This document shows positions 17,950-43,736 of a DNA stretch of 64,000 nt, piece by piece. Origin of the DNA: Halalkaliarchaeum sp. AArc-CO (GTDB taxonomy: Archaea; Halobacteriota; Halobacteria; Halobacteriales; Haloferacaceae). Position 1 is the stretch's first letter. Every line of letters begins with the position of its first letter. The translations under genes and the position numbers were made by a program. The notes under the pieces were generated by a model. That model saw only the letters and a list, made by a program, of their open reading frames with translations. It ran no database searches and was not told the origin of the DNA. The stretch is from NCBI RefSeq assembly GCF_024972735.1, contig NZ_CP087723.1, positions 992,001 to 1,056,000 on the forward strand, written 5' to 3'.

Positions 17950-17980
17950 CCGCGGACTGTCGATGCTCCTCCGTCAGTCT

Positions 17981-18087
17981 CGCCCCCTGTTTCGCTCTCG
18001 CCCCCTGTTTCGCTCTCGCCCCCTGTTTCGCTCTCGCCCCCTGTTTCGATCTCATCCCCTGTTTCGATCTCGTCCCGATTTCGATCT
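17981..18087. repeat. Tandem 18-bp repeat array, about six copies
   Basis: The unit is cgccccctgtttcgctct. Three perfect copies start at 17981, 17999 and 18017, followed by three increasingly altered ones (18035, 18053 and 18071). The array fills the gap between the uracil permease stop and the aldo/keto reductase start, so it lies in the 3' UTR of one and the promoter region of the other. The degenerating order from left to right suggests slippage growth. Confidence 0.9.
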
Positions 18088-18129
18088 CGTCCCCGGATTC
18101 TTTCTTTGCGGGGTGTGTACCCGACTACT

Positions 18130-43104: not shown

Positions 43105-43175
43105 ACCCCCCGTTAGGGACGGACGGCCTAAAACCGATGGCTTAAACCGGATCCGTCGAGAACTCACGGCTGCGT

Positions 43176-43259
43176 GCGAGGGTAGCCAAGCCTGGAAACG
43201 GCGGCGGACTCAAGATCCGCTCCTGTAGAGGTCCAAGGGTTCAAATCCCTTCCCTCGCA
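43176..43259 (+). tRNA. tRNA-Leu (CAA)
   Basis: This 84-nt type II tRNA has the acceptor GCGAGGG pairing with CCCTCGC, a D-arm with AGCC, a 7-nt anticodon loop CTCAAGA (anticodon CAA), a long variable arm and a T-loop TTCAAAT. The discriminator is A and no CCA is encoded. Its last 23 bases (43238-43260, with one following T) are repeated in the array just downstream. Confidence 0.95.
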
Positions 43260-43260
43260 T

Positions 43261-43607
43261 GCGTGTCAAAGCACAAATGCACCGGGGAAGGATTTGAATC
43301 AGGGAGCGCCTCCGGCGCGACCGTGGTTCAAATCCCTTCCCTCGCATGCGTGTCAAAGCACAAATGCACCGGGGAAGGATTTGAATCAGGGAGCGCCTCC
43401 GGCGCGACCGTGGTTCAAATCCCTTCCCTCGCATGCGTGTCAAAGCACGAATGCACCGGGAAGGATTTGAATCAGGGAGCGCCTCCGGCGCGACCGTGGT
43501 TCAAATCCCTTCCCTCGCATGCGTGTCAAAGCACAAATGCACCGGGGAAGGATTTGAATCAGGGAGCGCCTCCGGCGCGACCGTGGTTCAAATCCCTCCC
43601 CTCGCAT
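43261..43607 (+). repeat. Four tandem 86-87 bp units derived from the tRNA-Leu 3' end
   Basis: Units start at 43261, 43348, 43435 and 43521. Each ends with the 23-bp tRNA-Leu 3' sequence ggttcaaatcccttccctcg plus cat; unit 4 carries one change (ccctccc). Each also contains an inverted, imperfect copy (aggatttgaatca), so a unit can fold back on itself. The middle has gcgcctccggcgc, a perfect hairpin. Units are nearly identical (unit 3 lacks one G and has one A-to-G change). The open frames in this array are artefacts. Confidence 0.95.
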
Positions 43608-43736
43608 CGTCGGGGCCACACCCCGTGATGCGGAAGACCCGGAGCGGTCTTCCCTCGCAAAACCCTTCGTTTTCCGTGTTCGAACAGCGGCGACGCCGGC
43701 GTCACAGTTAACATCGTACGGTCGATAGGGTACTCC

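Follow-up and report, generated by a model that had tools for sequence, protein, structure and literature searches.

A tandem array behind tRNA-Leu(CAA)

The window, a stretch of 64,000 nucleotides from Halalkaliarchaeum sp. AArc-CO, contains a tRNA-Leu(CAA) gene that is followed, with no gap, by four units of 87, 87, 86, and 87 bp, counted from the base after the discriminator. The features of the locus are as follows.

43176..43259, + strand: tRNA-Leu(CAA), mature part (Rfam; the ARAGORN call is 43175-43260)
43238..43259, + strand: tRNA tail block of 22 nt, from T-stem base 52 to discriminator base 73, copied in all units
43260..43346, + strand: unit 1 (spacer, 43260-43286; inverted T-arm, 43287-43300; core, 43301-43324; direct tail copy, 43325-43346)
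43347..43433, + strand: unit 2, equal to unit 1 letter for letter (tail copy, 43412-43433)
43434..43519, + strand: unit 3, 86 bp, with one substitution and one deleted G relative to unit 1 (tail copy, 43498-43519)
43520..43606, + strand: unit 4 (tail copy, 43585-43606, with one mismatch to the tRNA)
43628..43659, + strand: extra hairpin, ATGCGGAAGA...TCTTCCCTCGCA, 3' of the array, ending again in the acceptor 3' strand CCCTCGCA (boundaries set by eye)

TRF delimits the repeat at 43238-43607, with an 87-bp period, 4.3 copies, a 98% match, and a score of 719. In pairwise alignments, for which the frame was shifted by one base, the units have 84 to 87 of 87 columns in common: units 1 and 2 are identical, and the remaining pairs differ at one to three aligned positions. 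Each unit is closed by a 22-nt copy of tRNA bases 52 to 73 (0, 0, 0, and 1 mismatches to the tRNA), preceded by a short core with a small stem, AGGGAGCGCCTCCGGCGCGACCGT, and by an inverted T-arm, GAAGGATTTGAATC, with 2 to 3 mismatches in 14. The initial annotation, made from the letters alone, had described a tandem array of 86- to 87-bp units directly after the tRNA, derived from its 3' end and each holding one direct and one inverted copy; TRF, ARAGORN, and Rfam bear out the array, and the tails and inverted arms were seen in every unit. A single unit is predicted to fold at -46.2 kcal/mol (z = -6.3), and the tRNA together with the array lies far outside the shuffles (z = -11.2).

At the array locus, only the tRNA itself reaches the gathering cutoff of a known Rfam family, and a scan of 43160-43720 at E values up to 10 gave no match to RtT. 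A search with the Leu unit (E up to 0.001) found no match in the AArc-CO genome beyond this locus. The neighboring genes are ordinary in their Pfam matches (an Fe-S biosynthesis protein, TBP, a DUF309 protein, and a desuccinylase-type domain), one of the five neighboring ORFs scanned being without a Pfam match, and an rRNA operon is located further on from the array (Rfam). Counterparts of the hairpin at 43628-43659 follow the unit of the other genus member and recur at many of the related loci L006-L034. Elsewhere in the window, TRF detected an 18-bp tandem repeat of 6.6 copies at 17978-18094.

A repeat family linked to tRNA genes in Halobacteriales

The array in the window is one member of a Halobacteriales-wide repeat family, not a local oddity. 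One unit, used as a query, matched 150 of the 170 genomes of its taxonomic family, and a strict core pattern was present in 100 of 170 family genomes and in 226 of the 391 genomes of the class (66 of 86 genera). In the phylum sample, this pattern occurred in 42 of 81 genomes of the order Halobacteriales and in 0 of 311 genomes outside the order, a split counted by hand from the list; the pattern reversed, used as a control, gave zero matches among the rows examined. A second core, AGTCGCGCGCAGCG...GAGCACGTCT, was found in 202 of the 391 class genomes. Speaking against strict confinement to the order, a scan of all genome contigs yielded at least 80 loci, five of which are on bacterial MAG contigs (L193, L198, L200, L216, and L231); these were assumed to be chance matches and excluded from the counts over all loci.

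Among 60 further loci from the one-unit search, ARAGORN identified a tRNA in 49. In these loci, the hairpin lies on the strand of the tRNA, often ∼40 bp downstream and sometimes further, the exceptions being alternative fuzzy palindrome matches at L039 and L053. Eight of the 11 loci without an ARAGORN tRNA were read by eye, and six of these resemble intron-bearing tRNA-Arg or tRNA-Trp, the other two resembling partial tRNAs. Leu, Glu, Ser, Arg, and Lys isoacceptors are among the hairpin-bearing tRNAs, and reading of the 3' arm identifies it as the tail of the respective tRNA. According to the initial annotation, the same unit at many unrelated loci would have made it a general repeat rather than a tRNA-derived one. 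The family is indeed widespread, but its members lie mostly behind tRNAs, each with the tail of its own tRNA, and beyond what that annotation had described, units built alike but with other tails are found behind many other tRNAs of the AArc-CO genome.

In all loci then collected, a set enriched for hairpins, an own-tail copy lies downstream of 187 of the 256 distinct tRNAs. In AArc-CO, at least one good own-tail copy was found within ∼1 kb downstream of 17 of 43 distinct tRNAs (37 copies), and in the other species of the genus examined, the same holds for 12 of 43 (16 copies), against 0 of 43 in the upstream control of either genome. This two-genome tail scan misses units with more than 4 mismatches in 22; the other species was scored empty at Gly(GCC) and Arg(CCT), yet a spacer and an inverted arm are present there. 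Six unit-bearing tRNAs are common to the two species (Ala-CGC, Asp, one Gly-TCC, Leu-CAA, Lys-TTT, and Val-TAC), and across the two genomes, the number of copies per unit-bearing tRNA ranges from 1 to 5. In a genome of another family, 17 of 32 tRNAs (from 30 of its 46 tRNA loci) have 19 copies downstream, compared with 3 of 32 in the upstream control, every one of them in loci with more than one tRNA gene. Thus, the layout is shared by 28 to 53% of the examined tRNAs in three haloarchaeal genomes. Tails of foreign tRNAs were matched downstream in 79 of 1,806 pairings in AArc-CO and in 32 of 1,806 in the other species, which is put down to similar tails as a group, not case by case.

Linkage to tRNAs is not absolute, because some units occur without one. 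At L125 (G067:C1:1471935-1472459), eleven tandem 50-bp hairpin units of the same core family make up a strongly amplified, detached array; no tRNA was noted in the 1.8 kb read. Another case is a second Thr(CGT) unit (L126; G000:C2:1328230-1328272), which lies ∼2.9 kb from the first and has no tRNA seen before it; the segment between the two could be an inserted or rearranged piece. At L341 (G212), three tRNA-Gly(CCC) genes with tail copies are located close together, and whole tRNA genes seem to have been amplified along with the units. At L011, L016, L017, L023, L025, L026, L031, and L033, extra copies of tRNA-Leu(CAA) were noted by eye beside the unit; these are either partial or interrupted near the variable arm by a long palindromic insert.

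In total, 286 units were found in the collected loci. In its general form, a unit is noncoding, roughly 80 to 180 bp long, and seated exactly at the mature tRNA end, and consists of a spacer (often a hairpin), an inverted T-arm, a hairpin core from a few shared types, and, as a direct copy, bases 52/53 to 73 of the tRNA; the first tail copy starts ∼65 to 130 bp behind the tRNA in most cases. The boundary profile, built on 46 copies selected to have no more than 2 mismatches within the block, shows identities to the tRNA of 0.98 to 1.00 from base 53 to base 73 and 0.89 at base 52. Outside the copied block, identity is 0.07 to 0.46 upstream and 0.39 to 0.65 downstream, the latter range being inflated because tandem units follow (behind the last unit of each array, in 29 arrays, it is 0.31 to 0.55). 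Given these sharp edges, the copied segment runs from the T-loop through the 3' strands of the T-stem and the acceptor stem to the discriminator.

A single core type (grouping by eye) recurs behind ten different AArc-CO tRNAs, and core sequences are conserved across genera. Of the 172 distinct core-1 units in all loci, 43 are off the standard T-loop pattern, several of them with a recurring one-base insertion (for example, ACAATCC or AACATCC). Of the 39 distinct spacers between tRNA and left arm in AArc-CO and its sister genome, 18 have a more stable predicted fold than their mononucleotide shuffles (z below -2), and several spacers have an inner motif in common, CTGCGA..GAGCAGTG, within a variable outer stem.

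Unit differences between species and pairing within units

In a comparison of the two Halalkaliarchaeum species, what follows a unit in one matches what comes right after the identical tRNA in the other at Gly(GCC) (30/30), Asp(GTC) (30/30), and Leu(GAG) (29/30). The difference between the species is therefore one of whole units, joined exactly at the mature tRNA end, and would most simply be placed on the tRNA-proximal side. More than one unit could be the extra one: at Gly(GCC), equally good fits are obtained with the sequences that follow units 1, 2, and 3, and at Leu(GAG), the sequence that follows unit 1 is a nearly equal fit (26/30). Moreover, the other species has a shorter array rather than a bare site at Gly(GCC), because the spacer and inverted arm remain, and the comparison of two species is unpolarized, because deletion between the tRNA tail and a unit tail would mimic insertion. 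At Arg(CCG) and several other tRNAs, no such junction match was seen between the species. At Asp(GTC) and Arg(CCT), the spacer and left arm correspond between the species but the cores differ; cores are thus exchanged within otherwise matching units.

At Leu(CAA), the copy count in the sister species, a check that the initial annotation had proposed, is one against four in AArc-CO: the single unit is followed by the matching flank (local score of 211 over ∼145 bp), and the unit is single in most of the related Leu(CAA) loci shown. With four near-identical units on one side and one orthologous unit with a matching flank on the other, tandem amplification of one unit therefore explains the array, which, judging from these alignments, was probably multiplied recently from one copy to four. 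The suggestion that the array might be a collection of integration scars does not fit this picture. Separate scars of larger elements, later deleted, are a very improbable origin and were dropped: integration into a tRNA does leave direct tail repeats, but the window units agree in 84 to 87 of 87 columns, the same compact anatomy recurs behind many tRNAs and in many genera, and covarying hairpins are not expected of scars.

Pairing within the units was examined in 268 of the 286 units, those with no more than 5 left-arm mismatches in 14, which reduce to 204 distinct pairs. The left arm follows the tRNA-specific bases, with column 5 paired in 180 of 204 compared with a shuffled mean of 106 and columns 10 to 13 above every one of 1,000 shuffles; because it was gathered partly by hairpin searches, this set is not unbiased, unlike the two-genome scan. 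For a subset of 44 of the 81 hairpins whose inner part is 12 nt long, pairing reaches 94.7% of the cells, and the covariation score is 0.276 compared with 0.115 ± 0.009 for shuffled and at most 0.083 for slid alignments, a result limited by relatedness and by the choice of rows, which were hand-picked for variety.

Wobble pairs were counted as an indication of whether the fold matters in RNA or in DNA. In the inner stem (42 distinct stems), there are 14 G-U pairs and 2 A-C pairs; real tRNA stems, for comparison, have 44 and 4. In the arms, the raw counts are 247 G-U and 106 A-C, with 119 of the G-U pairs from one nearly constant column, and without the two innermost columns, an exclusion decided after the table was seen, they are 113 and 106 (rates of 0.113 and 0.073; P = 0.0009, uncorrected for relatedness). 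Wobble is preferred in the T-stem part of the arms (0.240 versus 0.108) and shows no preference in the T-loop part (0.054 versus 0.040; P = 0.21). For the core, these counts lean towards a sense strand that is constrained, or at the least transcribed; for the arms they are mixed.

In the folding model, which ignores modifications and folding during transcription, the native acceptor/T pairs of 29 tRNAs fall from 0.863 for the tRNA to 0.237 when the first unit is added. Shuffling of the left arm yields 0.218 (7 better and 6 worse of 29), whereas shuffling of the tail copy makes matters worse (0.062). In the model, the inverted arm therefore gives the tRNA no protection from the tail copy, and self-masking of the tail copy by this arm was dropped as an explanation given the small effect of left-arm shuffling; if anything, the tail copy may protect the tRNA from the inverted arm. 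Two further candidates were set aside. As a termination signal, TTTT occurs within 20 nt behind the tRNA in 5 of 17 AArc-CO tRNAs with units and in 8 of 26 without, and behind the last unit in 4 of 17, so that T-runs give no sign either way; a kink-turn in the core was dropped on hand reasoning only.

Relation to tRNA-linked repeats and possible origin of the units

Our verdict is that the haloarchaeal units are an archaeal, palindromic variant of the tRNA-linked repeats (TLRs). In Escherichia coli, as excerpted from PMC8144298, 22 TLRs, first described in 1978, are found at ten loci, one to five each, and their last 18 to 19 bp are identical to the upstream tRNA or rRNA gene. Three TLRs of rRNA operons are transcribed and processed to RNAs that bind Hfq and CsrA in vitro, and before these findings, going by the same excerpts, TLRs had no known function (PMC8144298). 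The likeness is one of layout: the E. coli repeats (rttR at tyrTV; rrA, rrB, and rrF behind 5S) also lie directly behind tRNA or 5S genes, in numbers of one to five at each locus, and their last segment repeats the 3' end of the upstream gene (PMC8144298, in part). In the haloarchaeal units, the 3' end matches that of the upstream gene over the 22-nt tail with 0 to 1 mismatch and sharp edges, and tRNAs of the two genus genomes carry 1 to 5 copies.

For a direct comparison, 34 E. coli K-12 tRNAs, from eight loci hand-picked by coordinates rather than from the full TLR list, were scanned in the same manner, yielding 12 tail copies behind 10 tRNAs (three at tyrV and one each at argV, argZ, argQ, lysT, lysW, lysY, lysZ, lysQ, and lysV). 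Identity starts inside the T-loop, 4 to 5 nt after T54, in 12 of 12, whereas in haloarchaea the copied bases are 52/53 to 73; no CCA was seen after the haloarchaeal tails among those read. The inverted T-arm, regular in haloarchaea, is better than shuffles in only 5 of the 12 E. coli copies (the three at tyrV, lysQ, and lysV; P = 0.006 to 0.024) and no better in the other 7 (P = 0.26 to 0.97). The two domains thus have the layout in common, with the regular inverted arm, the shared cores, and the abundance being haloarchaeal. Convergence is as likely as common descent to account for this likeness of layout. A search of open-access PMC text for such repeats in archaea, the wording of which may have missed some, found none.

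Other short haloarchaeal repeats differ from the units. Haloquadratum MITEs, PATEs, and small mobile repeats are likewise short and noncoding, with inverted repeats or palindromes, but by their description in part of PMC3119063, these elements are chromosome-wide and defined by their termini, whereas the units lie mostly behind tRNAs with the tail of that tRNA. Proviral attR remnants also consist of a partial tRNA copy downstream of a tRNA; however, the Haloquadratum case described in that source is 6.7 kb away, in contrast to units that start at ∼65 to 130 bp, are often repeated, and possess an inverted copy and a shared core (PMC3119063, in part). A partial tRNA copy beside a viral integrase serves as attP in an excerpt of PMC7230728.

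Our preferred reading, to which we give about an even chance, is that these order-wide tRNA-linked repeats are small recombinogenic passengers of tRNA genes, with hairpins that are constrained, probably also in the read-through transcript of the tRNA. Unequal recombination or slippage between the 22-bp tail copies would change the copy number, such that recombination between tails could delete a unit without harm to the tRNA or multiply it, here from one to four; amplification and loss by this route are what we infer, not what was observed. Recombination anchored on the T-loop sequence, which is widely shared, may carry units and cores from one tRNA gene to another, with the tail of the new tRNA being duplicated when a unit arrives. 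The inverted arm could stay matched to the tail through quasi-palindrome correction, through selection on the folded form, or through both. Conversely, the excess of G-U over A-C in the inner stem (14 to 2) and the conservation of cores across genera are more than a neutral passenger needs.

The units might instead be functional trailer RNAs, transcribed with the tRNA, excised by tRNA end-processing enzymes, and acting as small RNAs or controlling tRNA maturation, a possibility we regard as tentative. Each unit ends in a tRNA-like 3' end, the inner-stem wobble counts are like those of tRNA stems, the hairpins covary strongly, the cores are conserved across genera (the second core in more than half of the class genomes), E. 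coli rRNA-operon TLRs are transcribed, processed, and bound by Hfq and CsrA in vitro, and the folding model suggests that units would disturb tRNA folding. Against a trailer RNA speak the T-loop part of the arms, which lacks a wobble preference, and the occupancy, which differs between the two species of the genus; furthermore, by reasoning, C-to-T mutation of the sense strand in transcribed DNA would also yield an excess of G-U.

In CRISPR arrays, new units are added next to a fixed leader. By analogy, tRNA genes might be the leaders of polarized arrays, in which a Cas1-independent activity would insert palindromic units at the mature tRNA end, duplicating the T-loop-to-end segment (∼20 to 22 bp) each time, so that arrays would grow on the tRNA-proximal side as CRISPR arrays do from the leader, and E. 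coli TLRs would be products of a like activity in Bacteria; we consider this rather unlikely. The likeness to casposon- and CRISPR-type arrays, in which a repeat is duplicated at each insertion, is only formal. Casposon target sites overlap tRNA 3' ends, by four to seven tRNA nucleotides in five euryarchaeal casposons (PMC4046053, in part), whereas the haloarchaeal overlap is 22 nt, the units contain no genes, and the AArc-CO genome has no Cas1 match. An array made by Cas1 itself was dropped: Cas1 (PF01867) had 0 matches in this genome (99.9% complete), with 9 of 14 control genomes positive.

It is quite unlikely that the units are mini-elements of an integrase, that is, that a tyrosine recombinase acting in trans inserts and excises them at an att site at the T-loop/tRNA end, with the direct and inverted T-arms as core sites. 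The exact tRNA-end junctions and the T-loop-bounded repeat would suit such an enzyme, tRNA 3' ends are preferred by archaeal integrases (PMC8371274, in part), and the AArc-CO genome has seven matches to Phage_integrase (PF00589). However, none of the seven is in the window, from which the initial annotation had correctly reported an integrase to be absent. Two (at 816.8 and 824.5 kb) follow tRNA-Thr(GGT), which is without a good tail copy, the unit-bearing Gly(CCC) being ∼3 kb away; four others on the same contig are, by their coordinates, separated by at least about 30 kb from the nearest unit-bearing tRNA, and the other contig holds the seventh. In addition, conservative recombination would need an element that contains a matching tail for each tRNA, yet one core lies behind ten different tails. 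Three unit patterns gave 0 matches in viral contigs, and the array was not matched in plasmids or phages at an E value of 1e-5, a looser plasmid search (E up to 10) aligning only the tRNA part or short stretches. The proposal that the array is a bank of att sites of MGEs was abandoned on these grounds.

The units thus form a large comparative set for tRNA-linked repeats, with 286 members, occupied and unoccupied junctions, and core exchange, and with a precise boundary, from the T-loop to base 73, close to that of E. coli. They are also a warning that 22-bp tail copies behind haloarchaeal tRNAs are alone no proof of past integration. Finally, the origin of tRNA-linked repeats becomes testable in culturable haloarchaea.
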